From positions 1-64,000 of IMG/VR virus record IMGVR_UViG_3300027806_000001: a stretch of DNA of 64,000 nucleotides. One strand, written 5' to 3'. Position 1 is the first letter of the stretch. Every line of letters starts with the position of its first letter. Both the position numbers and the translations under genes were made by a program. The notes beneath the pieces are model-generated. The model saw only the letters and a program-made list of their open reading frames with translations, had not been told where the DNA came from and searched no databases. Source of the stretch: a virus. Positions 9,664 to 64,000 of the stretch are shown one piece after another.

Positions 9664-10815
9664 TCAGTATCCGGCGTGCTTGTGCTTCTTGGACGAGGTG
9701 GACAGGACCGCCGCGGTCACCCCGGTCAGGCTCGGGACGGCGCACTTGCCCGCCTTGGCCGAGCCGCCGAACGTGCCCAATTGTAGCGGCTGCGTGTCGA
9801 CGGTGGTCAGTACCAGCAGGCGTACGTCGGCCGGGAGGACGTCCGGCAGGACCTTCAGGGCGGCGGATGCCTCCCCCTTCACGGCGGCCTTGACGATGAT
9901 CAGGGAATTCCCCTGGGCGTACTCCGAGCCGAACCTCAGCAGGTTGCCGGACCGGTAGGCGGCCGGGACCAGCTCGGAGACGTACTGCTGCTTGTCGTGC
10001 AGGACCTGGATCGTGGAGAAGACAGGGGTGCCCTGGGGCAGGACCTGGCCGCGCGCCAGCGGCAGGGAATACGAGGACGGCCCCACGTGGACCGACTTGT
10101 CCGTGTAGACGGTGGCGACGGCCCGGTCGACCACTACCAGCTCCACGGTCTCGTCCTGCAAGGTGACCGGGGTGCCGGAGGCGCCTCCCAGGATACGCAT
10201 CGTGTCCAGCCAGGTGGCGCCGTAGGTGTACATGCGCCAGATCGCGTCGAACGGCACCTTGCGGTAGATCCTGTCGGCGAGCTGCAGGTTCAGGACGTAG
10301 CCGAGCCGTGAGGTCACGAAGCCGGACTCGCGGAGGACCTTCCTGGCGTGGAAGACCGCGGTCTGGCCGTCGACGTAGGTCAGAGGGGTCCTGAAGACGA
10401 TCTTGCCAGGCAGGACCTTGTAGTCGATGCCCTCGCAAAGGATCCTGGTCGGCTTGACCGGGTCGTCGTAGAGGAACGCCACGGAGATGATCGTCGGATC
10501 GCAGTAGTACTCGCCCTCGTTGGAGGAGTCCTCGCCGTACATGTAGCTGGTGCCGTAGCGGCTGGCGAGGTCTCCGTACTCGAACTTCGCCCGGTTGTTG
10601 GAGGCGAAGACGAACCTCTCCCAGGCGGTCGTGCGGCCGGCCGGCACCTCCTTGGCGGAGACCGAGGAGACCAGTTCGTCGGCGGAGATCTCGGACTGGC
10701 CGTGGACGGACAGCACGCCGCGGAGGAGCTGCCGCAGCAGGGCCGCCGAGCGGAACACCGTGGTCCAGAAGGAGCCGATCAGCGAGAGGAGGGTGCGTGG
10801 GAGGATCTGGTTCAC
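9664..10815 (-). CDS. baseplate-region structural protein (383 aa)
   Basis: The N-terminus MNQILPRTLLSLIGSFWTTV is hydrophobic and looks like a packing helix rather than a secretion signal. The middle has many aromatic residues (SRYGTSYMYGEDSSNEGEYY). The C-terminus is basic (SSKKHKHAGY). The start overlaps the end of the J-like gene by 4 bases, so the two are translationally coupled. In contractile tails the gene after J often encodes an I-like or wedge partner. Sequence similarity to that family is not evident, so this is contextual inference. Confidence 0.45.
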   Translation of the reverse strand: MNQILPRTLLSLIGSFWTTVFRSAALLRQLLRGVLSVHGQSEISADELVSSVSAKEVPAGRTTAWERFVFASNNRAKFEYGDLASRYGTSYMYGEDSSNEGEYYCDPTIISVAFLYDDPVKPTRILCEGIDYKVLPGKIVFRTPLTYVDGQTAVFHARKVLRESGFVTSRLGYVLNLQLADRIYRKVPFDAIWRMYTYGATWLDTMRILGGASGTPVTLQDETVELVVVDRAVATVYTDKSVHVGPSSYSLPLARGQVLPQGTPVFSTIQVLHDKQQYVSELVPAAYRSGNLLRFGSEYAQGNSLIIVKAAVKGEASAALKVLPDVLPADVRLLVLTTVDTQPLQLGTFGGSAKAGKCAVPSLTGVTAAVLSTSSKKHKHAGY

Positions 10816-12494
10816 GGGCAGTCGAGGACGCTGATGTCGACCATGGAGGTCTCGAGGAAGAACGCGCAGGTGTTGGCCGTGACGCCCTTGGCCGGGTTGT
10901 CGGGGGCCTTGAGCGCGTCGGAGGAGTAGACGACGCTCTTGGTGAGGTCGGGGTTGATGACCACGCCGTACATGTGGATGGGCAGGTCGACGCTGTAGCC
11001 GTCAGGGATGTTCTGGTAGGCGACGTGGACCAGCGCCGAGCCGAACACCGGTCCTCCCACGGGCGCCGAGTTGAACTTGGACACCAGGGCGGACTTCAGG
11101 GCGGCCAGGTCGGGGTCCTGGGCCCCGGAGGGCTTGATCAGGCGCAGCTGCAGGGAGCAGAGGACCGGGACCGGCGCCCGGACCAGCATGTCGGCGGTGA
11201 GGCTGCGCTCCGCGGCCGAGTCGACGTAGGCCTGGATCTCCCGGATGTTGGGCATCTTCAGGTAGTCGACGTAGAACTGCAGCAGTCCGGCGACGTTCAG
11301 CACGCCCACGGGCGGAGCCGACGTGTCGGAGGTCCAGGTCGACATCGCGCTGTTTCCCGCCTCGGTGCCCGACTCCTTGATGTTCGCGTAGGGCACCAGG
11401 AACCGGAAGGTCGCGCGCTGGTAGGCGGTGAACGGAGGAGGATTGCCTCCCACCTCGTGCATGGTGTTGTTCTCCATGGTCCGGGCGTCGGACACGATGG
11501 CGAACGAGGTCAGCTGCACCTGGGGGTTGGACCGGACGGCCTCGATCAGGTAGAGCCCGGCGGCGCGGTCGGAGCCCATCGAGATCTCGACGGTGCCGAG
11601 CCTGGTGGCCGTGTCGTAGGAGACGAGGACGGCCGGCAGGCGCTCGGAGAGCCTGGAGGGGTAGCTGGCCGACTTGACGTGCAGGTCGACGCGGTTGCCG
11701 GTGTGGACTCCGTCGACCAGGTCCCTGGACATCTCGGGATCCAGGAAGCCGACCACGCCGACGTCCTTGATGCCCGGGAACTGGGTCTTGAGCTTGGCCC
11801 GGATGTGCTCCCGGCCTGACAGCGCCTTGCCGACCACGCCGTCCTTGGCCTTGGCCAGCAGGACCGTGTTGTCGTCGGCGTCGGCTCCGCCCGTGAAGTC
11901 GGAGTCGGCATTGACGGTGACCTGGCCGGGGATGGTCGGAGCCACCGCGGTCGCCTTGGTCGAGGCGCGGATGTTGCCGGCGGAGCCTGGCGAGAGCGCG
12001 GTCACGGGGATGACCGCGCTGAACAGGCTGCCGCTGGGCTCGAGGATCCTCTGGTTGGCCAGGCCGGTGTAGAGCGACTCGGCGACCAGCACGTAGGATC
12101 CGTCCGGGGAGTACCGCACCCCTCCCAGGGTGAAGACCACCGAGGGAGGGATGCTGGCGGTCGCGGAGGAGGACATGAAGATCCGCAGGAGGCCCGACGC
12201 GGTCGAGCCCTCGGACCTGGTGACGTTGTAGTTGGACAGCACCCGCTCGAGCTGGACCGGGTCGACCGCGGACGGATCCTTGGAGATCTCGGACAGCGAG
12301 CTGGACACCAGGGCCAGGTCGATCTGCTCCTGGATCCGGGTCTCGAGGTGGGCGTAGATGCGCACGACCAGGTCGCGCAGGGCGGTGCCCGGGGACAGGT
12401 CCAGGGTCGGATAGGCAGCCTGCACGAAGGCCACGATCTGCTCCTCCTTGGAGTAGACCGTCGATGCGGACTGCGATGCCAGCGGGGTTTCCAT
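10812..12494 (-). CDS. baseplate wedge protein, J-like (T4 gp6 / Mu-P2 J family)
   Basis: This 560-residue protein has the typical baseplate J layout. A helical N-terminus (KEEQIVAFVQAAYPTLDLSP, then GTALRDLVVRIYAHLETRIQ) is followed by beta-rich segments. The family signature FTGGADADDNTVLLAKAKDG lies near residues 200-220. The next segment (REHIRAKLKTQFPGIKDVGV) fits the J fold. It is preceded directly by a gp25/W-like gene, the usual order in contractile tails. In such phages J proteins dimerise to form the wedge ring that transmits the contraction signal. The family call is fairly secure. Confidence 0.75.
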   Translation of the reverse strand: METPLASQSASTVYSKEEQIVAFVQAAYPTLDLSPGTALRDLVVRIYAHLETRIQEQIDLALVSSSLSEISKDPSAVDPVQLERVLSNYNVTRSEGSTASGLLRIFMSSSATASIPPSVVFTLGGVRYSPDGSYVLVAESLYTGLANQRILEPSGSLFSAVIPVTALSPGSAGNIRASTKATAVAPTIPGQVTVNADSDFTGGADADDNTVLLAKAKDGVVGKALSGREHIRAKLKTQFPGIKDVGVVGFLDPEMSRDLVDGVHTGNRVDLHVKSASYPSRLSERLPAVLVSYDTATRLGTVEISMGSDRAAGLYLIEAVRSNPQVQLTSFAIVSDARTMENNTMHEVGGNPPPFTAYQRATFRFLVPYANIKESGTEAGNSAMSTWTSDTSAPPVGVLNVAGLLQFYVDYLKMPNIREIQAYVDSAAERSLTADMLVRAPVPVLCSLQLRLIKPSGAQDPDLAALKSALVSKFNSAPVGGPVFGSALVHVAYQNIPDGYSVDLPIHMYGVVINPDLTKSVVYSSDALKAPDNPAKGVTANTCAFFLETSMVDISVLDCP

Positions 12495-12498
12495 GGGG

Positions 12499-12954
12499 TT
12501 ACACCGTAGAGATTGACACTGGGGCCAGGATGGTCGAGGAGTCGGCGAAGGTCAGCCGGATGCGCATGACGGCGGAGTCGAGGCGGACGGAGAACGACTC
12601 CAGCCTGGCGCCGCGGATGCGCTCGTCGTCCGGAGCATCCGAGAACGCGTTCGACAGGTAGTTCAGGATGTCCGGCAGGTCGCGGTGGAACTCCTGCAGC
12701 AGCCTGACCTCGGTCGAGATGGATCCGCCCAGCAGGTTCGAGGCAAACCGCGTGCCGTAGTTCGGCTCGGCGGCCACGGAGCCCCTGGCCGTCATGAGCA
12801 GCTTGAGGAACGCCTGCGCGGCCTTCCAGGGGCCCGAGGAGACTGTGCCGGACCCGGAGATGCCGACGAACACGGCCGCCGCGCCGGGATCGGCCGACGT
12901 CTCGAGGATGCAGAGGTCGACGTTGCGGCCGACGTAGTCCTGGCTGATGGTCAT
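12499..12954 (-). CDS. baseplate wedge protein, gp25/W-like
   Basis: This 151-residue protein has features of the gp25/W family: a region with AAQAFLKLLMTARGSVAAEP, a conserved-looking NYGTRFASNLLGG turn and a helix near LLQEFHRDLPDILNYL. It ends in beta strands that handle a derivative-type component. It lies immediately upstream of the J-like gene, the canonical pairing. In contractile tails this protein links sheath and wedge. The start ATG overlaps the preceding stop (ATGA). Confidence 0.6.
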   Translation of the reverse strand: MTISQDYVGRNVDLCILETSADPGAAAVFVGISGSGTVSSGPWKAAQAFLKLLMTARGSVAAEPNYGTRFASNLLGGSISTEVRLLQEFHRDLPDILNYLSNAFSDAPDDERIRGARLESFSVRLDSAVMRIRLTFADSSTILAPVSISTV

Positions 12955-13358
12955 GATGGCCCCGCGGCGGCGTCGAGCGCCAGGAAGGAGGCGATGCGGG
13001 TCTCGATGGAGTCGGCGAGGCCGGTGGCCTGGCGCGCGATCGACTTCCTGCGGGCGGTCTCCTCGGCGATCCGGCGGATCCGGGAGGAGTACCTGAAGGC
13101 GGCGTCCCGGTGGATGGCGGCCACGAGGTCGTTCTGCACCTGGTTGCGCATCAGGTCGAAGTCCTTGACGCGGTCCTTGGCGGCCTCCTCCAGGTAGGCC
13201 TGCTCGAGCTCGTTGCGGTCGAAGGCCTCGGCCAGGCCCTGCCGGGTGTTGTCGCCCTCGGTCGGCTCGAACGGGGCGCGGAACACCTTGCCCTCGGACG
13301 AGGAGTCCTTGGCAGCCTTGCGCAGCAGGTCGATGGCCTTGCGGGTCGCCTCGTTCAC
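12951..13358 (-). CDS. hypothetical helical protein (135 aa), GTG start
   Basis: The frame opens upstream, but the most plausible start is GTG 13358 (VNEATRKAIDLLRKAAKDSS). It overlaps the stop of the sigma-factor gene as GTGA. The product is almost entirely charged helix (RRIAEETARRKSIARQATGL), ending DAAAGPS, with no Cys. It is coupled on one side to the sigma factor and on the other to the gp25-like wedge. It could be a baseplate component or a sigma-associated protein; the sequence alone does not decide. Confidence 0.5.
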   Translation of the reverse strand: MNEATRKAIDLLRKAAKDSSSEGKVFRAPFEPTEGDNTRQGLAEAFDRNELEQAYLEEAAKDRVKDFDLMRNQVQNDLVAAIHRDAAFRYSSRIRRIAEETARRKSIARQATGLADSIETRIASFLALDAAAGPS

Positions 13359-14107
13359 TGCATGCTCCTGTTGATGGCGGCGTACTCGTCGAGCTTGGCC
13401 GCCAGGCCTGCGGTGAGCTGGCTGACGCGGCCCGGGCTGATCTTGAGCCGGGCGGCGACCTGGGTGTTGCTCAGCAGCGGCTTGCCGTTGTAGCCCAGGC
13501 GGTGGTCGAGGATGACCTGCTCGGTCGGGCTGAGCGACGGGTACATCGTGGCGAGGACGTCCTTGTTGAAGCCGAGGTTCTTGACCGCGGTCATCTCCTG
13601 GGAGCTGGCCGGGGTGTCGCCGCCGGCCACGACCGCGCTCTCGCTGAAGGTGCGCTTGTCCAGGCCGCGGATCTTGCCCAGCTGGCGGACGGACATGCCG
13701 GTCAGGTCGGCCAGCTCCTGCTCCGACGGCGGCCTGCCCTTGTTCTCGTAGAAGTCGGCCTCCTGGCGGCGCAGGGCGCTCAGCTGCTGGTAGACCCGCT
13801 CGGGCATCGGGGACGGCATGATGTCGCGGGCGTACCTGGAGATGGGCTGGAGCTGGGTGTAGACCCAGCTGCGCAGGGCCGAGCCGGAGTCGGGGGAGTA
13901 GTTCTTGATGGCCTTGACGGCCAGGAGCTTGGCCTTGCTGCGGACGGCCGGGCCGGCGTTCATCCCCGAGTAGGCGTAGACCGCCTTGTCCAGGTCCGGC
14001 GACAGGGCGTCCAGCATCTGGTTCATGTACTGCGGATCCTGGGTGCGCGTCCACTGGGCGTGGACGTCGTTCAGGGTGGTCTTCTTGATGGCCGGGGCCG
14101 GGGTCAT
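13355..14107 (-). CDS. sigma-70-family RNA polymerase sigma factor
   Basis: This 250-residue protein has recognisable sigma regions. Region 2 spans roughly residues 30-97 (AIKNYSPDSGSALRSWVYTQ, then LQPISRYARD, comparable to the KFDPxRGxKFSTYAxxxIRQAI pattern). Region 3 is near 108-150 (GRPPSEQELADLTGMSVRQL). Region 4 is near 190-240 (SLSPTEQVILDHRLGYNGK, then a helix-turn-helix SNTQVAARLKISPGRVSQL). Region 1.1 is absent, as in alternative sigma factors. The gene lies inside the baseplate operon and overlaps the next start by 4 bases. It should direct an RNA polymerase (host core, or the phage enzyme implied by the beta-prime-like gene) to phage promoters. Confidence 0.8.
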   Translation of the reverse strand: MTPAPAIKKTTLNDVHAQWTRTQDPQYMNQMLDALSPDLDKAVYAYSGMNAGPAVRSKAKLLAVKAIKNYSPDSGSALRSWVYTQLQPISRYARDIMPSPMPERVYQQLSALRRQEADFYENKGRPPSEQELADLTGMSVRQLGKIRGLDKRTFSESAVVAGGDTPASSQEMTAVKNLGFNKDVLATMYPSLSPTEQVILDHRLGYNGKPLLSNTQVAARLKISPGRVSQLTAGLAAKLDEYAAINRSMQ

Positions 14108-14121
14108 TCCTGGATTGTACC

Positions 14122-15762
14122 TCAGGGGGAATATAGGCCGGTTGAAAAGTCGTACTTATAGTCGAACAGCGTCTGGAACGGAGCGCTGCCGGCCCCGTCG
14201 CCCAGGTCGTCGAACAGCTTGACGTCCGCGTCGTTCATGACGTGCCGCATGCGGAGGATCGTGTTGACGACGGCGCTCTCGGCCGAGAAGTTGTAGGTCA
14301 CGCTCTCCACGATCCCGACGCAGGCGTTGGAGGAGTTGAGGCCCGAGATCTTGTTCGCCGGGAATGTGTACTTCAGTCGCATGCCGGGGGCGAAGTCCAG
14401 GGCGAATCCGAAGATCACGTCCTGGGTCTTCGAGGAGTAGACGGTGTTGAAGTAGGCCTGCTTGGCCAGGGCGTCGCCCAGGGGCTTGACCGAGGCCAGG
14501 TTGGACGCCAGGGCGGCCGAATTTGAGGTCGGAGGCTGGGAGATGGGGAAGAGGCCCTGCCTGGCGTCGAATTCAAAGCCCCCGAAGCCGGGCAGCATGG
14601 TGTTGTACAGATAGGGCGGCGTTGGTATCACAAGCCACCCGCCGTAGGCTTCCTCGTCGCCAGCTGGCACCTTCAGGTTGTACTGTCCTACGAAGCGGGT
14701 CTCTATCTTCGTAGGTTCCTGGGGCGTGTTCGCGACCGACACCCTGCCGGACCCTCCGTACATGATGGTCCCGATCGGAAGCCTGACGGGGTTGGGCGAC
14801 GCGGCCCCCAGGTCGAACGCCGTTGCGTCTATCGTCATGTCGACCTCGCCGACGGGCCTGTAGGGCATCAACTCCGCAATGCTTGCTGAGGAGTTGAGGG
14901 GAGGACGGGGAGACAGGACGACTCCGAACGGAGAAAAGAGCATCAGCAGCTTCTCAAAGGCTGTGGCTCCGCCTTGGCCTGCCGAGATCAAGCTGACGAA
15001 CTGATCGTGCATTTGCGTCAAGACGCCTGCCACTCCGAACGCCGGCTTTACGGAATCCAGCAGCTTCAGGTTTTCCGAACCGATCCGCTCAAGGCCGGAT
15101 TCAACCCTGTCGTTGTTCGAGTCGACGCTCTGACCTCCGAAGAAGTTCGCCAGAGGCGACGTCGCCGCAGTGATCATCGCCGGCTGCAGAATGTCAGTCC
15201 ACCAGTTCGAGCTCAGGTACTCGTCCGTACGGACGATCTTTCCTTCGTTGGGCTCCCTGTAGAGTGCAAACCCGGTCCCCTCGACGTTTCTCTTGACCCT
15301 GGTGGTGAACCAGTCGGAAGGCGTCGACCGGTCGAAGTCACCCGAGCCGAAGGCCGTGATGTCCAGGTCGCTGAGTCTGCCGACGAGGGAGATGACCGTG
15401 CTGGATCCTCCGGTGCTGACGCTGACGGAGGCGCTCTGGATGTAGCCGTCGAACAAAAGCTCCCGGTAGGCGGGAGCCGACGGCTTCAGCTTTATGCCCT
15501 GGGGGTGCGGGTCTCCGGCCTGGCCGATCACGTAGAGCCGGGCCCTTTTCCGGCCCTGCAGGTCTTCCGGCGTCAACAGCACCTCGTTGCCGCTCAGGTC
15601 CGCGGTGACGCCCGACGGTATCTTCACCGTGGCGGAGGGGATCTGGTTCAGCACGTACTCGGCCATGGCTGCGACGACCGGAATCTTCTTGTCGCCCAGC
15701 TCCAGCACCACCTGCAGCTGGTGGATGGTCGCGTTTCTGGGGATGTAGGAGGGGGCCGACAT
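14122..15762 (-). CDS. putative baseplate/tail hub protein (546 aa)
   Basis: The start is ATG 15762 (MSAPSYIPRNATIHQLQVVL), overlapping the upstream stop by one base as TGATG. Open frame continues further upstream, but that is the shadow of the 245-residue gene. The segment FDGYIQSASVSVSTGGSS followed by STVISLVGRLSDLDI resembles the beta-rich hub domain of late-control D / gp27-type proteins. A hub role is inferred from that and from its position after the tape measure and before wedge genes. Codon use in the middle (around 14560-15320) looks less GC-biased than in neighbouring genes. Confidence 0.45.
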   Translation of the reverse strand: MSAPSYIPRNATIHQLQVVLELGDKKIPVVAAMAEYVLNQIPSATVKIPSGVTADLSGNEVLLTPEDLQGRKRARLYVIGQAGDPHPQGIKLKPSAPAYRELLFDGYIQSASVSVSTGGSSTVISLVGRLSDLDITAFGSGDFDRSTPSDWFTTRVKRNVEGTGFALYREPNEGKIVRTDEYLSSNWWTDILQPAMITAATSPLANFFGGQSVDSNNDRVESGLERIGSENLKLLDSVKPAFGVAGVLTQMHDQFVSLISAGQGGATAFEKLLMLFSPFGVVLSPRPPLNSSASIAELMPYRPVGEVDMTIDATAFDLGAASPNPVRLPIGTIMYGGSGRVSVANTPQEPTKIETRFVGQYNLKVPAGDEEAYGGWLVIPTPPYLYNTMLPGFGGFEFDARQGLFPISQPPTSNSAALASNLASVKPLGDALAKQAYFNTVYSSKTQDVIFGFALDFAPGMRLKYTFPANKISGLNSSNACVGIVESVTYNFSAESAVVNTILRMRHVMNDADVKLFDDLGDGAGSAPFQTLFDYKYDFSTGLYSP

Positions 15763-32301: not shown

Positions 32302-35300
32302 CTAGTACTTGAAGTAGAGGTCGCCGTCGGACCCCAGGCCGGCGCCGGGGGTGGTGGTGCCGCTGAAGACCTTTGGAATCCTGTTTCCGTTGTTGTTGAT
32401 ATTACCCGAGGCGCTGACCAGGTTCAAGTCGCCTGCCCCGGTCTCGATGACGCCGTTCGTCGTGTCGTGGTTCAACCGCATGAAGTGGTTGGCATTCGAG
32501 CTGCCCCGGCCGTAGAGGTAAAGCGTCGGGTCGGCGTGGTCGATCGTTGGAACACGGTTCGCGCCTCCTCGCTCGTTGTTCTGAACGATAACGAGCGCGC
32601 CACTGCTTCCTGCGTTCTGACTGCCAAGGAGCAGACCAATCGTCATGCACCCTTGACTGCTTGCCTCTTGATATGAGAGCGTGTACCAGTTCGCGCCGCC
32701 CAAAGCAAAGTCAATCGCGTTTCCCATTCTCCATGGTGTGTTACAAAGGAAGCCACCAGCGGTTGTGCTGCCATCGGAGTTCCTGCGCGTTCCGAGAGTG
32801 ACACCAGAACCCCAGGATGTACCGTCAACCGTCATGGCGAAGTCGGTCGATGCAGTCCCGTTCGTACCGATGCGCACCGTGCCGTTGGTCGAGTTGCTCA
32901 GAAACTCGCCGTTCCCCATCACGATCGCGCCGCTGCCCGCCGTGCCGACCGTGAGGGTTTCGGTCGCAGAGTCGTATGTCAGCCCCGCGTCGCCCGCGAA
33001 CGCACCGGCGTTGTTGAACTGGATCTGCCCGCTGCTGCCGCCAGGGCTGCCGCTGCCGCCGGAGACCGTGGCCCACTGCAAGGTGGCATCGTTTCCGGTC
33101 ACTGATGCGATCTGCAGCACCTGGTTGGCCGTGCCGACGGCAGCAGGCATGGTGTAGATGTTGCTGTTCGTGACCGAGGAGGGGGACCGCAGGGCGACGT
33201 AGGTCGAGGTGCTGCTACCGAGGCGGAGCTGGCCCTGGGAGCCGACCTGCAGGTGACTGCCATCGAAGGTGAACGCCGAGGACGCCGCCAGGGCGCCCGA
33301 GGAATTGTACTGGACCTGGTTGGTCGATCCGGCCACCAGGCCCACCGTGCCGCTGGCGTTGGGCAGGGTGATGGTGCGGTTGGCGCCAGGGTCGGCTGCC
33401 TGCAGCCTGGTGGTGAAGGAATTGGCCGTAGCTCCCTCGAACAGGATGCCGACGTCCAACGAGTCGGTTCCGTCCGTGCTGTAGGTGCCCAGGTAGAGGT
33501 TTCCACCGGTGACGCGAACCTGCCCAGCGCCATCCACAGCGTTGGTGACCTGCAGCTGAGCCATGGTTCCGCCCAGGCTGCCCAGCGAGGTGGTAGGGGC
33601 GATCGTCAGGTTTCCGCCCGGCGAGATCGTCAGGCTGTTTGTCGAGCCGCTGTTGGTGGTGATCGACGAAGTCGTGTTGCCCAGCCGGAGCGTCGGATTG
33701 CGCAGCGCCGCGGTGCCGGTCGTGGCCCCGAGGGTAAGGGCGGTGGCGGCTCCTCCGATGTTCAGATTGGTTACGAACGTGTTGAACAGGTTGCCAAGGC
33801 CGGACGTGACCGTGGTGGCAAGGGTGGCGGTGCCCAGGGAGTTGGCCCGGATCGTCAGCGTAGAGTCGCCGGAGGTCGTGCCGATGTTGACCGATGCCGC
33901 GGCTCCGCCCAGGTTGATGGTGGAGGCGCCGCCGGTGGCCATGTTCAGGGTGCCGGTGGTGATGCCGGTGAACAGGTTGACTATGCCGGTGGTGACGTTG
34001 ACGTCCAGGTTCGACGTGCCTGCGGCGATGCCGTTCAAGGTTACCGTGTTGCCGGTAATGTTCGTGCCCAGCCTGATGGTCGGGGCCGCGGCCGCGGCCG
34101 CGGCGATTCGCACGTCTACCGAGGTGGCAGCAAGATTGAAGTTCGACGAGGAGCTGGTGATGTCTCCGCCGTTGACCGCCAGGTCGCCCGCGACGGTCAG
34201 CTCGGACGTGCCGCTGTTGTAGGTCAGGCCGGAATGCCCTCCCAAAGCGCCGCCGTTGTTGAACTGCACCTGGGTCGTGGAGCCGCTGGCTGTGACGGCC
34301 AGGGTGCCGGCGGACAGCGACAGGTTGGATCCGACGGAGATCTCCTCCACCGAACCTGCGGCAGCCGTGGTCCGGCCAAGGATCCTCGCCGTGTTGATGT
34401 TCTGGAACTTGGCGAAGGTGACGGCCTGGTTGGCGATCGTAGTCGTGTTGGAATTGACGCTGGCGGTGACATCGCCGCTCAAGGCTGCCCGCTCGAACGA
34501 CACCTGGCCGGCGGTCACCCAGTTGGCCGAGACAGTGTTGGAGTTGCCAACCACCCGTTCGTTGGTCAAGGTGGCATCCGCGGTGCGAACCAGGTAGTCG
34601 ACCGTGGTGGGGGCGCCGCCGCCTCCGCCGGAGACCGTGGCCCACTGCAGGGTGGCGTCGTTGCCGGACACCGAGGCTATCTGCAGCACCTGGCCGTTGG
34701 AGCCCACCACATCCGGCAGCGTGTAGATGTTGCTGTTCGCAACGCTGGACGGCGAACGGAGCGCGACGAACGTGGCTCCGCTGCTGCCGAGGCGGAGCTG
34801 GCCCTGGGAGCCGACCTGGACATTGGAGCCGTCGAAGGTGAAGACCGAGGAGGCTGTCAGGGCGTTCGAGGAGTTGTACTGGACCTGGCCCGTCGAGCCG
34901 CTGGCCGTGACGGCCAGGGTGCCGGCGGACAAGGACAGGTTGGCTCCGGCCGACAGCTCCTCGACCACCCCGGCGCCTGCCGTGGTCCGGCCCAGGATCC
35001 TGGCCGTGGCAACGTTCTGGATCTTGGCGTAGGTGATCTGGCTGTCGCCGATGCCGGCGGTCGCGAGGGTGCCGAAGCCAAGGGTGGTGCCGCTGAGCCT
35101 GAGCACCTGGCCGTCGACCGTGGCCTGAATGTCGGCCGGATCTCCAGCAGTGGCTGCAGCGCGCCCGATGACCGAATTTGCAGCGCTGTCTCGGATCGCA
35201 GTATTGGTGACGGCATTGGCGGCAATTCCGGGATCGGGGTAGGTGCCGGTCAGAGAGCCGCCGGCCGCCCCGGTCGGCGTCCTGGAATTGGTGAGCCTGC

Positions 35301-36510
35301 TGTCGTTGCCCTCGCAGAAAGTTCCGGTCGTGGAGCCGAAGGATCCGGCCTGCAAGACGCCGCCGGTGCCGGTGATGATCGGCAGGCTGGCGGTCGAGCC
35401 GATGGCGCCGGCATTGGTGATGTTGCCGTGCGTGTGGCTGGATGCGGCAAGACCGGCCTCGGCCGCGGTCTGGTTCTTCCAGAGGCCGCTCGAAAGGTCG
35501 TAGGCCAGCAGGTCGTTGTCCGCCGGCGAAGCGCCGATCAGGACGTCGTGCAGCTCGTCCAGCTCCTGGCCGTTGATGACCTTGACGTAGGCTCGGCCAG
35601 CTGCGCCGTTGCTGGCGTCTTGCACCCAGCCGAGGAACACCAGGTGCGCGGGCTGGACCGGCTTCGTGGTCGTCCAGTTTCCGGCCGTCTGCGAAAGCCA
35701 CAGCGCGTTGCCGTTGACGAACGTGCCAGTGGGCAGGTTGCTCAGGCCGGTCAGCAGGCCCTGGGTGATGATGTAGCCGCTGACGGTGTTCGTGATCGTC
35801 TCGGCCGCCACGCCGATGGTGGTGGCTGCGGTCAGCTCGCTGTCCGCGTCCGCCAGCTCGACCGTCAGGTGGGTGCCCTGGCTGCCGACGATGTAGACGA
35901 CCTGGCCCTTGGTGATGGTGCCGGCGCTGGCCTTGCGCACGATCTTCATCAGGGCCTCGTTGGCCGGGCTCTGGTAGGTGCCGGTGACGACGTTGACGCC
36001 GGAGATCGTGCCGCCGGTCAGGGCGACGGCGTTGGCGTCCTGGGTGGCGACGGTGCCAAGGCCGAGGGTGGTCCTCTGGGCGACGTTGTCGAGGTCGTCC
36101 AGCAGGGCCTTGCCTGCCGCGGTGATGTCCCCGCCGAGCTTGCTGGTGCCGATCGCACCCGGGGCGACCGTCGGATTGGGGTAGTTTCCGCTGAGGTCGC
36201 CGCCGGCTGCGCCGCTAGGGGATCCGCCGGCGGTCGAGTTGACCCACTTCTGCAGGCTGGCGTTGTAGACCAGGGCCTGGCCGTCGGCCAGGGTGCCGAG
36301 GTTCAGCTGGACGTCCTTGAGGGAGGCCAGGAACGCTTCGGCGTCCATGTAGTCGAGGTCACGCCACGCCGTGATGCCGTCGCCGACCTTGAGCAGGTCG
36401 TTGGTCTCGTCGTAGACAGGCTCTCCCCGCCCGTACACCCGGTTGGTGGCGTACAGGTTGGCGTAGGTGTCCCTGCGGATTCGCAGGCGGGCCAGCAGGG
36501 TGGTCGGCAT
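32302..36510 (-). CDS. long tail fibre protein (1402 aa)
   Basis: The N-terminal domain (RIRRDTYANLYATNRVYGRG; VGDGITAWRDLDYM) is the virion-binding domain seen in many fibres. Next comes AAGGDLSGNYPNPTV. A long Thr/Ser/Gly-rich shaft contains repeats: ARILGRTTA plus LSLSAGTLAVTASGST occurs twice, and QVGSQGQLRLGSS with NDATLQWATVSGG occurs twice. The final 200 residues (TPWRMGNAIDFALGGANWYT) are less repetitive and coded with noticeably lower GC. They are probably the receptor-binding tip. No C-terminal autoprotease motif is evident. A receptor-binding role is inferred from the fibre family. Confidence 0.7.
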   Translation of the reverse strand: MPTTLLARLRIRRDTYANLYATNRVYGRGEPVYDETNDLLKVGDGITAWRDLDYMDAEAFLASLKDVQLNLGTLADGQALVYNASLQKWVNSTAGGSPSGAAGGDLSGNYPNPTVAPGAIGTSKLGGDITAAGKALLDDLDNVAQRTTLGLGTVATQDANAVALTGGTISGVNVVTGTYQSPANEALMKIVRKASAGTITKGQVVYIVGSQGTHLTVELADADSELTAATTIGVAAETITNTVSGYIITQGLLTGLSNLPTGTFVNGNALWLSQTAGNWTTTKPVQPAHLVFLGWVQDASNGAAGRAYVKVINGQELDELHDVLIGASPADNDLLAYDLSSGLWKNQTAAEAGLAASSHTHGNITNAGAIGSTASLPIITGTGGVLQAGSFGSTTGTFCEGNDSRLTNSRTPTGAAGGSLTGTYPDPGIAANAVTNTAIRDSAANSVIGRAAATAGDPADIQATVDGQVLRLSGTTLGFGTLATAGIGDSQITYAKIQNVATARILGRTTAGAGVVEELSAGANLSLSAGTLAVTASGSTGQVQYNSSNALTASSVFTFDGSNVQVGSQGQLRLGSSGATFVALRSPSSVANSNIYTLPDVVGSNGQVLQIASVSGNDATLQWATVSGGGGGAPTTVDYLVRTADATLTNERVVGNSNTVSANWVTAGQVSFERAALSGDVTASVNSNTTTIANQAVTFAKFQNINTARILGRTTAAAGSVEEISVGSNLSLSAGTLAVTASGSTTQVQFNNGGALGGHSGLTYNSGTSELTVAGDLAVNGGDITSSSSNFNLAATSVDVRIAAAAAAAPTIRLGTNITGNTVTLNGIAAGTSNLDVNVTTGIVNLFTGITTGTLNMATGGASTINLGGAAASVNIGTTSGDSTLTIRANSLGTATLATTVTSGLGNLFNTFVTNLNIGGAATALTLGATTGTAALRNPTLRLGNTTSSITTNSGSTNSLTISPGGNLTIAPTTSLGSLGGTMAQLQVTNAVDGAGQVRVTGGNLYLGTYSTDGTDSLDVGILFEGATANSFTTRLQAADPGANRTITLPNASGTVGLVAGSTNQVQYNSSGALAASSAFTFDGSHLQVGSQGQLRLGSSTSTYVALRSPSSVTNSNIYTMPAAVGTANQVLQIASVTGNDATLQWATVSGGSGSPGGSSGQIQFNNAGAFAGDAGLTYDSATETLTVGTAGSGAIVMGNGEFLSNSTNGTVRIGTNGTASTDFAMTVDGTSWGSGVTLGTRRNSDGSTTAGGFLCNTPWRMGNAIDFALGGANWYTLSYQEASSQGCMTIGLLLGSQNAGSSGALVIVQNNERGGANRVPTIDHADPTLYLYGRGSSNANHFMRLNHDTTNGVIETGAGDLNLVSASGNINNNGNRIPKVFSGTTTPGAGLGSDGDLYFKY
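33061..33318 (-). repeat. intragenic repeat, copy 2 of fibre shaft module
   Basis: This stretch of about 258 bases is a diverged direct repeat of 34629-34888. Both code for the VQYNSSxALxASSxFTFDGS to NDATLQWATVSGG module of the long fibre. Alignment by eye shows long identical blocks separated by mostly synonymous differences. Confidence 0.6.
34629..34888 (-). repeat. intragenic repeat, copy 1 of fibre shaft module
   Basis: This is the partner of 33061-33318 within the long-fibre gene. A second, shorter pair codes for ARILGRTTA plus LSLSAGTLAVTASGS and lies near 34880-35030 and 34270-34410. The repeats could allow shaft shortening or lengthening by recombination. Confidence 0.6.
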
Positions 36511-40854: not shown

Positions 40855-41832
40855 TCAGGTGAAGTCGACGCGGGAGAGGGCCGCGACGTTCGCGATGCCG
40901 CCGCCGAGCATCTCGTAGGCGTACCACGAGAGCATCGGACCCTTGCGCTCGACGAACATGGTCGTGTCCTCGAGGAAGTACAGGCGACCGAGGTACTCGG
41001 GCGAGCTGAAGAGGAACATCGTGTTGTCGCGGACGAGGTCGTCCTTGATCGTGGTGATCCAGTTGAGGGCGCACCACTTGTTCGCCTCGCCGGCCCAGCC
41101 GTTGACCATGATGTCCTGCGACATATCGCCGCCGACCTCTTCACGGGTCCACTTCTCGAACTCGAGCGCCGTCTTCTGGTTGACGAGGGCCGTCTGCGGG
41201 CGCAGGCGGGCGTTCGCAGCCATCATGATCTTCTTCGCCTCGACGACGTTCTCACGGGTGAGGCCGCCGGAAAGGGTGCGCCAGAGCTTGATGTTCGAAC
41301 CGTTCGGGCCGAACGGAAGGTCGACGTCCGCGACCATCGTGTCGTTCGAAAGGAGCGAGTTGCAGGTCTGGATGAACTTGCCGTCCTCCTCAGCCTGGAG
41401 GTCCTTCAGCGAGTTGTCGCTGATGACCTGGCGGATGTCGAGGTCGTAGTCATGCAGCTCCGCGACGTCCTTGTTGAACATCGGGGTCGCGATGCGGGCG
41501 AAGGTCACGAGCCAACGCTTGCCGTAGATGTAGGTGCCGGTCGGGAACTCGCCGAACGGGATCGACATCGCGCCAGGCGAATCGGGCTCGAGCTCGATCA
41601 CCTTCGACGGCTTGTCGGTCGAGACCTGCTTGGTGAGGTCGTCGCCGGTGATGGTCTGCGCCGGAAGGATCTTCCGGAGGAAACCCTCTTCGCGGAGACG
41701 CATGCGGATGAAGTCGGAAGTCGCCCGGCTGACCTTGATGGCCGACTCGGGGTTGAATTCCATGTCCTGGATGTGCTGGCGAACGACCTGGTTCGCGCGC
41801 TTCTCCATGTCTGTGAGATGCTCAAGGGCCAT
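40855..41832 (-). CDS. major capsid protein
   Basis: This 325-residue product begins MALEHLTDMEKRANQVVRQH, then SRATSDFIRMRLREEGFLRK and ILPAQTITGDDL. This N-terminal helix and loop pattern occurs in HK97-fold capsid proteins of several large myoviruses. The rest has mixed strands and helices (YIYGKRWLVTFARIATPMFN). A strong ribosome-binding site (AGGAG, 9-base spacing) and a downstream hairpin fit very high expression. It follows the protease, scaffold-like and 225-residue genes in classical head-gene order. Confidence 0.7.
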   Translation of the reverse strand: MALEHLTDMEKRANQVVRQHIQDMEFNPESAIKVSRATSDFIRMRLREEGFLRKILPAQTITGDDLTKQVSTDKPSKVIELEPDSPGAMSIPFGEFPTGTYIYGKRWLVTFARIATPMFNKDVAELHDYDLDIRQVISDNSLKDLQAEEDGKFIQTCNSLLSNDTMVADVDLPFGPNGSNIKLWRTLSGGLTRENVVEAKKIMMAANARLRPQTALVNQKTALEFEKWTREEVGGDMSQDIMVNGWAGEANKWCALNWITTIKDDLVRDNTMFLFSSPEYLGRLYFLEDTTMFVERKGPMLSWYAYEMLGGGIANVAALSRVDFT

Positions 41833-53371: not shown

Positions 53372-55231
53372 TCAATAGGTGCCCTTCGGTCCCTTAGAGA
53401 TCTCGCCCGAGGCGAGGGCCGGGATCCACGACGTGCCGTGCAGCTGGGACGTCGAGCCCCGCTGGACGTTCTCGAGGAAGGTCTTCTTGAGGTTGAAACC
53501 TCCGAGCTGCACCATCCAGTCGCGGTCGCCCACCAGGGACTCCATCGCCCTGGTCATGGTCGGCTTGAACGGCGGCGGGTTCGGATGGGCGATCACCTCG
53601 TTGAAGCCGCTGTCCTTGAGTTCCTTGACGACCGACGGCGTGAGCCTGGTGCCGATCGAGTAGTGCATGACAGGCTTCTCCAGGTACTGGCCCTGGAACT
53701 TGCCGGGCTCGCCCACCTGGAATCCCTTGCGTGGCTCGTACTTGGCCGCCACGTAGTCGTAGCTGACGATGTCCTCGGGGTAGGCCCCTGGGATGGCGTC
53801 GGGCTCGGTGACCTCGACCTGGTTGATCAGGCCGCGGGCCACGACCTCGACGTTCCGCCGGTGGACCGGCAGGCCGTTCTCCTGGAGGGCGGACTTGAAC
53901 TGCTGGACGAACCGGCGCCGGGCCTCGCCGATGCCCTTGAGGTCGGCGATGTCCTTGGGGTTGATGACGCCGTCGGACAGGGCGTCGCCCGCCTCCAGGG
54001 TCTGGCCGGGCTTGACCGTGACGGCCTGCTCGGCCGGCACGTAGTAGCGCTCGTTGTTGACGTAGACGTAGTTGCCGCCCTGGGGAGCCGGCTCGATCTT
54101 GCCGACCGATCCGTCCACCTTGGACACGGGGGCGCCGTCGGTGAAGGTCTTGGGAACCTCGACCAGCTGGTTCAGGTACGCGAAGCCGGTGACGGTCCGC
54201 TTGGCCTTGCCCTTGGCGACGCCGCCTCCGTGCTTCGAGTTGAGCATGCCCTGGCTTACAGGTTCGGCGATGGCCTGCGCCGCGGTGATGCCGACGTTCA
54301 TGCCGGTCTCGGCCAGCTTGCCGTGCTCCCGTATGCCAGCGGCGATCCTGGGCAGGCCTCCCATGGCGCTTACCGCGGCGATCGGGGAGTAGACGAAGGC
54401 GCGCTTGACGCCCTTGGCGTTTAGCGCCTTGAGGACCTTGGAGTCGATGTAGGTGCCGCGCTTGAACTCGCCTTCGTCCCGGGCCAGCACCGAGCCGATG
54501 CTGTCAGGGTCGTCGGTCTCGACCATCAGGCCCTGGCCGTCCGGAATGTCCTCGTCGGTGGCCACCAGGCGGTGCGCGGCGGCGGTGAGGCGCTTGGCGA
54601 AGTAGCCCGCCTCGCCGACCGCCAGCTTGACGTCGATCGAGCCGGCCCGGGCGCCGTAGGATCCAGCCCAGTACTCGACCGGGTCCACGCCCTCGGCGTA
54701 GGAGTTGAGCACGGGAATCGGCACCGGCCGGCCCTTGTTGTCCGAGTAGAGCAGGTCCGTGCCGATCATGGACGCCAGCTGGTTCTTGTTGCCGCGGGCG
54801 CCCGCGAAGACCTGCATGGCGAATGGGTTGTCGTTCTTGAGCGCCTCCTGGTAGACGCCGTCGACCAGGTCGCCCTGGTACTTCAGGGCTGCATCGACGA
54901 TGCGTTCGTTCCGGATCTTCGGGTTCTGCTCGGAGCGGACGATCGCCCGGACCTCCTTGCGGAGCTCGTCGGCCAGCTTCTGCTTGATCTTCGGCGGCTT
55001 CAGGTCCTCGAGCGTGAAGCTGGACCTGGTGGACTGCCGGGCGCTCTTGAGGCCGGTCAGGGTCAGGCGATGGATCATCTCCCGGTACTCGTCCGGGTTC
55101 ATCTTCTGCGCCATGTCCGTGAGGAACTTGCGCATGGACGACTTGTCCCAGACGCGCTCGTAGTCGCGGTGCTCCTCCGGCAGCACGGAGTTGATCACGA
55201 GCTGCCCGACGGTGGTCAGCTTCGGTTCCAT
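53372..55231 (-). CDS. RNA polymerase beta-prime subunit, C-terminal half (phage-encoded)
   Basis: This 619-residue protein aligns by motif with the C-terminal half of bacterial RpoC. TTVGQLVINSVLPEEH starts the homologous part. AGARGN at 143-148 matches SGARGS. EGVDPVEYWAGSYGARAG at 180-197 and AGYFAKRL match the bridge-helix region (REGLxVLxYFISTHGARKG; SGYLTRRL). NVGITAAQAIAEP at 312-324 matches AVGVIAAQSIGEP. A trigger-loop His (H334, in SKHGGG) is kept. NVEVVARGLINQVEVTEP at 460-477 matches HIEVIVRQM. The Cys residues of the second RpoC zinc site are absent. The half with the catalytic NADFDGD loop is not in this window. It lies among head genes and overlaps the next gene start by 16 bases. 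Confidence 0.85.
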   Translation of the reverse strand: MEPKLTTVGQLVINSVLPEEHRDYERVWDKSSMRKFLTDMAQKMNPDEYREMIHRLTLTGLKSARQSTRSSFTLEDLKPPKIKQKLADELRKEVRAIVRSEQNPKIRNERIVDAALKYQGDLVDGVYQEALKNDNPFAMQVFAGARGNKNQLASMIGTDLLYSDNKGRPVPIPVLNSYAEGVDPVEYWAGSYGARAGSIDVKLAVGEAGYFAKRLTAAAHRLVATDEDIPDGQGLMVETDDPDSIGSVLARDEGEFKRGTYIDSKVLKALNAKGVKRAFVYSPIAAVSAMGGLPRIAAGIREHGKLAETGMNVGITAAQAIAEPVSQGMLNSKHGGGVAKGKAKRTVTGFAYLNQLVEVPKTFTDGAPVSKVDGSVGKIEPAPQGGNYVYVNNERYYVPAEQAVTVKPGQTLEAGDALSDGVINPKDIADLKGIGEARRRFVQQFKSALQENGLPVHRRNVEVVARGLINQVEVTEPDAIPGAYPEDIVSYDYVAAKYEPRKGFQVGEPGKFQGQYLEKPVMHYSIGTRLTPSVVKELKDSGFNEVIAHPNPPPFKPTMTRAMESLVGDRDWMVQLGGFNLKKTFLENVQRGSTSQLHGTSWIPALASGEISKGPKGTY

Positions 55232-63891: not shown

Positions 63892-64000
63892 CTATTTCTT
63901 TTAAGAAATAGGCCTCGACTCCTGCGTACGTTAGATGGCCTCTATATACCTAGGGGTTCTACCTATGGGTATACCTATTAGGTTAAACAATCATCTAACG
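63892..64000. promoter_or_regulatory. AT-rich region with inverted repeats and TACCTA iterons
   Basis: The stretch is far more AT-rich than the rest of the window. It holds a 9-base palindrome arm pair around TT (CTATTTCTT/AAGAAATAG, 63892-63911). It also holds a 9-base inverted repeat CGTTAGATG (63929-63937) / CATCTAACG (63992-64000), with 54 bases between. Inside this lie three TACCTA copies at 63947, 63960 and 63972, spaced 12-13 bases. It lies upstream of the first gene of the leftward series. It may be an operator, promoter or origin; the right edge is cut by the window. Confidence 0.5.

Follow-up and report, generated by a model that had tools for sequence, protein, structure and literature searches.

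The window analysed here, a stretch of 64,000 nucleotides, corresponds to bases 1–64000 of a 183,468-bp phage record (IMGVR_UViG_3300027806_000001) with 66% G+C and a 127-bp direct terminal repeat, whose minus strand holds nearly all genes. The genes of the locus, together with the capsid and RNA polymerase genes referred to below, are the following:

10812–12494, minus strand: gp6/Baseplate_J-like wedge protein, 560 aa (PF04865, 1.8e-9; phrog_6, 1e-17)
12499–12954, minus strand: gp25-like baseplate wedge protein, 151 aa, with weak family-profile matches in the PDB
12951–13358, minus strand: all-helical protein, 135 aa, GTG start at 13358; syntenic with Gp11 of Salmonella phage Arash, a virion protein
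13355–14107, minus strand: sigma-70-family factor, 250 aa, running from an ATG at 14107 to a stop that ends at 13355; region 2-like part at about aa 53–96, region 3 at about aa 105–155, region 4 helix-turn-helix (HTH) at about aa 192–240
14122–15762, minus strand: hub-side protein of 546 aa (g14), directly upstream of the sigma gene, where it is conserved in window-type and related phages
40855–41808, minus strand: major capsid protein homologue, among the 13 genes whose homologue in Arash can be detected
53372–55231, minus strand: C-terminal half of RNA polymerase beta' (beta'C), 619 aa (Rpb1_5, PF04998, 6e-21)
91779–97883 of the genome, outside the window, minus strand: fused beta/beta'N RNA polymerase gene, 2034 aa (Rpb2_6, 9e-43; Rpb1_2, 6e-23)

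By sequence homology, the product of 13355–14107 is a sigma-70-family protein with regions 2, 3 and 4 in order, which agrees with a preliminary description of this DNA whose coordinates proved exact. In single-sequence Pfam searches, the window protein passed the cut-off for Sigma70_r3 only (1.1e-5), with a weak match to Sigma70_r4 (0.025) and none to Sigma70_r2, while PHROG_351 (‘RNA polymerase sigma factor’) was matched at 1.3e-10 over residues 64–241. The search with region 2, 3 and 4 profiles that the description had suggested was carried to ten members of the family: Sigma70_r3 was matched by 10/10 and Sigma70_r2 by 5/10, with E-values up to 0.1 and a best value of 0.0036. At E<=0.1, a profile made from 10 relatives matched 67 PDB sequences, of which each of the 60 listed was a sigma factor; the best matches were SigA (1.2e-13) and RpoD (around 5e-11), with alignments running from region 2.2 to 4.2 of these proteins. 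The AlphaFold model (pLDDT 84) gave 122 Foldseek matches in the PDB at E<=1e-3, the top ones being nearly all sigma or RNA polymerase entries, with a low global TM because the domain arrangement is uncertain.

The placement of the gene within a baseplate operon also stands, as it is followed on the same strand by the 135-aa gene, the gp25-like gene and the Baseplate_J gene. The sigma stop and the start of the helical gene share 4 bp (GTGA), in keeping with the claimed coupling by overlap to a helical gene that precedes the wedge, and this helical gene in turn overlaps the gp25-like one. The gp25-like label is the weaker part of that claim: all five PDB matches of the family profile are gp25-type wedge proteins, but at E-values of 0.017–0.9, and one relative matched phrog_43 at 3.7e-5. 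For the helical protein we obtained no meaningful PDB profile match, and its AlphaFold model (pLDDT 65) was too poor for use. On the upstream side of the sigma gene, Arash-type phages carry a lysozyme-bearing structural protein (gp8) and a small gene. Elsewhere in the window, positions 32302–36510 of the minus strand encode a tail-fibre-like protein of 1402 aa that carries an Mtd_N domain together with DUF5907 repeats.

When viral contigs were searched with a single sequence, either the sigma or the wedge protein, no relatives were returned, and the genome collection yielded none either. Retrieving sigma relatives from IMG/VR required a three-member alignment; alignment-based searches there recovered 14 loci and, in a second round, 49, some of them near-duplicates (34 distinct sigma sequences besides that of the window). 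Although these relatives diverge to around 20% identity, the gene occupied the same operon slot in the first 14 loci and in 49/49 of the second set, where it was followed by a gp25 relative and then by a wedge relative unless the contig ended. Almost every locus that extended far enough had a g14-type or gp8-type gene upstream. The same slot holds gp10 of Arash, which is annotated as a sigma factor, and gene 11 of Vibrio phage D69, annotated as hypothetical. Since the loci were retrieved by sigma sequence patterns alone, their neighbourhood counts as independent evidence.

Regarding the RNA polymerase, the whole record gave one Rpb2_6 and one Rpb1_5 match, that is, a single detectable enzyme, and the sigma factor is likewise the only one detectable. 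The nearest annotated relatives are Arash and Vibrio phages D69, D181 and D148; along its length, beta'C shares 25.9% identity with Gp216 of Arash. The fused beta/beta'N gene retains an intact NADFDGD catalytic motif. An intein with splicing and LAGLIDADG domains lies inside the beta part of that gene, and the terminase large subunit gene (genome 171430–174339, plus strand) also has a LAGLIDADG domain, probably belonging to a second intein.

Sigma and polymerase genes co-occurred in both directions. The beta subunit was present in 23/23 sigma-bearing records of at least 150 kb (two pairs among them being near-duplicates), and the sigma-bearing records lacking a polymerase were shorter fragments. 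Starting from the polymerase, we found the sigma factor (E<1e-30) in 15 of 16 records of at least 150 kb, the exception being a 170-kb polymerase-bearing record with no detectable sigma. In 10 of those 15 records the g14, gp25 and wedge genes were recognised around the sigma gene, and three more had a gp8 relative upstream of it. When the window phage was compared with Arash outside the 94–110 kb stretch of the latter, only 13 BLAST homologues were shared: terminase, portal, capsid, wedge and further genes of the virion region, the two polymerase genes and sigma. This set of virion and packaging, polymerase and sigma genes indicates that the sigma and polymerase genes are carried along with the virion module.

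Arash (OQ632216; PMC10585845) resembles the window phage in having a syntenic homologous sigma factor, Gp10, and the same fused beta/beta'N and beta'C subunits (Gp206 and Gp216). It differs in that Gp10 is only about 22% identical and in its second, non-virion sigma factor (Gp196) and TATAAG motifs, both of which escaped detection in the window phage. Particle data come from this one relative. In the published mass spectrometry of Arash virions, Gp10 was detected with 100% coverage, 24 unique peptides and 467 spectra, alongside both polymerase subunits, with 3516 spectra for Gp206 (beta), the most-detected virion protein, and 1210 for Gp216 (beta') (PMC10585845). From these counts, which are semi-quantitative, we calculated 2.31 spectra per residue for Gp206, 2.00 for Gp216 and 2.00 for Gp10, with 1.21, 1.51 and 0.98 for the baseplate neighbours Gp11, Gp12 and Gp13, respectively. 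At that resolution, the values are compatible with sigma and polymerase subunits being roughly equimolar. With 10.3 unique peptides per 100 aa, Gp10 also ranked first in peptide density among 17 virion proteins, and Gp196 is absent from the virion protein table (PMC10585845). The same proteome lists probable non-structural enzymes (ribonucleotide reductase, primase and ligase), so that carry-over is possible, as its authors state; they reported the virion sigma factor without generalising (PMC10585845). The product of Arash gp217, directly after beta'C, is an SNF2-type helicase abundant in virions (2.43 spectra per residue); it is reminiscent of the RapA-like helicases associated with polymerase genes of phiKZ-group phages.

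We propose, with a probability of about 0.72, that the gene at 13355–14107 encodes the sigma subunit of a virion-packaged multisubunit phage RNA polymerase, made late and used early in the next infection. The factor would be synthesised late together with the baseplate proteins, would enter the particle with the polymerase (the beta/beta'N fusion and beta'C), and both would be delivered with the DNA. At the start of infection, it would then bind the phage polymerase and direct it to phage promoters, so that the particle probably brings a transcription machine ready for use into the cell. The suggestion in the preliminary description that the factor serves the phage polymerase implied by a beta-prime-like gene is thus well supported, given that beta'C is real and has a fused beta/beta'N partner, and that the polymerase and sigma nearly always occur together and are both present in virions of Arash.

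Bacterial sigma region 2 docks on the beta' clamp helices. In the phage sigma family, R91, R125 and E131 are invariant (35/35 sequences) and the region 2.2–2.3 signature YDP..G..L.THV is preserved. On the polymerase side, the clamp-helix segment aligns with bacterial beta' and recurs across the phage family as D.NYLYKEL..N..L.., although from our reading of the alignment only E295 appears to be kept in the window phage among the equivalents of the beta' residues R275, E295 and A302, which are important for sigma-70 binding. The -10 melting aromatics of sigma-70 (F427, Y430, W433 and W434), which are typical of primary sigmas and do not define the family, are not conserved in the 35 sequences: the F427 position is L, that of Y430 holds H in 28/35 and otherwise W or Y, and the W433/W434 pair is replaced by N/T followed by Q/Y/H/W. 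Because the tryptophan pair is replaced, promoter recognition is probably unlike that of the host sigma-70, as this divergence within region 2 suggests. The region 4 HTH is good in window-type members, while the second half of region 4 is poorly conserved in Arash-type ones.

One could argue that the protein is instead a late sigma factor that redirects the host RNA polymerase to phage late promoters, its presence in virions being carry-over. The sigma-family late factors T4 gp55 and SPO1 gp28 redirect the host polymerase in this way, and to our knowledge their phages encode no multisubunit polymerase. The location of the gene within a late operon fits such a role, as does the literature, where large phages with a recognisable sigma usually have no polymerase of their own and the sigma is believed to recruit that of the host (PMC7598289, PMC7824862). 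We nevertheless consider it unlikely in view of the near-universal two-way co-occurrence with a phage polymerase, the baseplate slot, which a factor of this kind does not need, and the top rank of Gp10 in peptide density among the Arash virion proteins compared. It is also quite improbable that the protein, though sigma-like in fold, now serves as a structural part within the baseplate and has lost its role in transcription. The fixed slot between hub-side and wedge genes, the presence in Arash virions, the lost tryptophan pair and the poorly conserved end of region 4 in Arash-type members would suit such a part, but the region 2–3 signature is conserved, with its three invariant residues, window-type members keep a good region 4 HTH, and the near-obligatory partner of the gene is the polymerase, not the baseplate genes alone. 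Least probable by our estimate is a sigma factor of the phage polymerase acting only after its synthesis in the infected cell, at late or middle times, with a passive virion signal: likely carried-over enzymes in the Arash proteome and the one detectable polymerase with one detectable sigma in the window phage agree with it, but the slot lies within the virion module, spectra per residue about equal those of both polymerase subunits, and the second sigma of Arash, for which a non-virion role is more plausible, is missing from the virion list.

In order to place the packaged sigma–polymerase pair that we favour among known systems, we compared it with other phage polymerases. The phiKZ/AR9-type phages are alike in having a multisubunit polymerase with split beta/beta' genes and a virion-packaged form that starts early transcription. 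They differ in encoding two polymerases (vRNAP and nvRNAP) and no sequence-recognisable sigma, their gp226 and gp68 being sigma-like by structure only and belonging to the non-virion enzyme; the window phage has one polymerase, not two separate ones, and a recognisable sigma-70 factor. Thermus phage P23-45 also has a tail-linked virion polymerase gene, but there it is the polymerase that forms a fusion with the tail tape measure protein, and no sigma-70 partner is mentioned in the abstract (PMC10770324). Moraphages have a sigma factor and lack a polymerase. According to reviews, large phages have either their own multisubunit polymerase without a recognisable sigma or a sigma that borrows the host polymerase (PMC7598289, PMC7824862, PMC13282480). 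The window lineage breaks this division, as it encodes both, apparently paired in the virion. How phiKZ-type virion polymerases find their first promoters is an open question; in the window lineage it becomes directly testable, since the specificity factor can be recognised from its sequence and an isolate is available (Arash, on Salmonella).

A further likeness is with the mReC phages (multimeric-RNAP-encoding Caudovirales), metagenomic tailed phages whose beta and beta' are recognisably similar to the cellular ones (PMC7481178). The window phage combines Rpb2_6, Rpb1_2 and Rpb1_5 matches with terminase, portal, capsid and baseplate genes, and the mReC lineage is of the same kind as the phages described here. 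The word sigma is absent from the main text of the mReC paper (PMC7481178; Weinheimer and Aylward 2020). If the window phage belongs to that lineage, its sigma/core pair comes from a polymerase reported as deep-branching relative to cellular enzymes. As a tentative extension, to which we give somewhat less than an even chance, an old and large lineage may package a complete sigma-dependent holoenzyme (beta/beta'N, beta'C and a true sigma-70-family subunit), with sigma entering by way of the tail/baseplate module, arriving in the cell with the first DNA and loading the polymerase on early promoters independently of the host sigma. Within the open-licence literature, three points are new here: the slot fixed across the lineage, the co-occurrence of sigma and polymerase seen from both sides, and the hint of stoichiometry.

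Finally, we searched for promoter motifs. The structural operon of the window phage yielded no sigma-70-type promoter and no promoter-like motif, and the other role first proposed for the gene, linking late structural expression to its own transcription, gained no support, its place in the operon being better explained by a virion component. In Arash-type phages, k-mer and dyad searches revealed enrichment of a bipartite motif, TCAATAA-N13-(T)G[G/T]TATAAG, with a strong bias to the strand that carries the non-structural genes (Arash, 27 vs 2 sites; D69, 21 vs 3). The same bias was seen in records G007 (32 vs 1) and G031 (45 vs 7), while shuffled-letter controls were unbiased, and these searches detected no such motif in G010, G022 or the window phage. 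The window phage showed another motif, GGCTAAACA-N11-CGnGTTAnAAT, at 13 minus-strand intergenic sites located at 70–132 kb and 174.5 kb of the genome and absent from the structural region. These sites score 22–34 against a null maximum of 5.7, values that are inflated because the motif was derived from the same sites. On the minus strand its half-site CTAAACA is found 11 times, nine of them intergenic, and on the plus strand it is absent. A second sigma of the gp196 type was found neither in the window phage nor in members other than the Arash-type ones; as the latter also carry that second factor, no motif can be assigned to the virion sigma, and it is possible that a host sigma uses either motif.

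We also considered TAATAGGTAGAAC as a promoter class and rejected it, since it mainly reflects a duplicated 108-bp hairpin element. This non-coding element is found in two intergenic copies, 97% identical, at 63913–64020 (63913–64000 in the window) and 165838–165944 of the genome, and the window copy had no match in Rfam. Its 82-nt core carries a perfect 14-bp inverted repeat, GCGTACGTTAGATG...CATCTAACGTACGC, that encloses spaced AATAGGTA/CATAGGTA/CTAGGTA repeats; the DNA fold z-score is -6.0. Besides, clusters of diverged repeats with paralogous small genes are present at 80–82, 84.9–87.5 and 104.7–109.8 kb of the genome.
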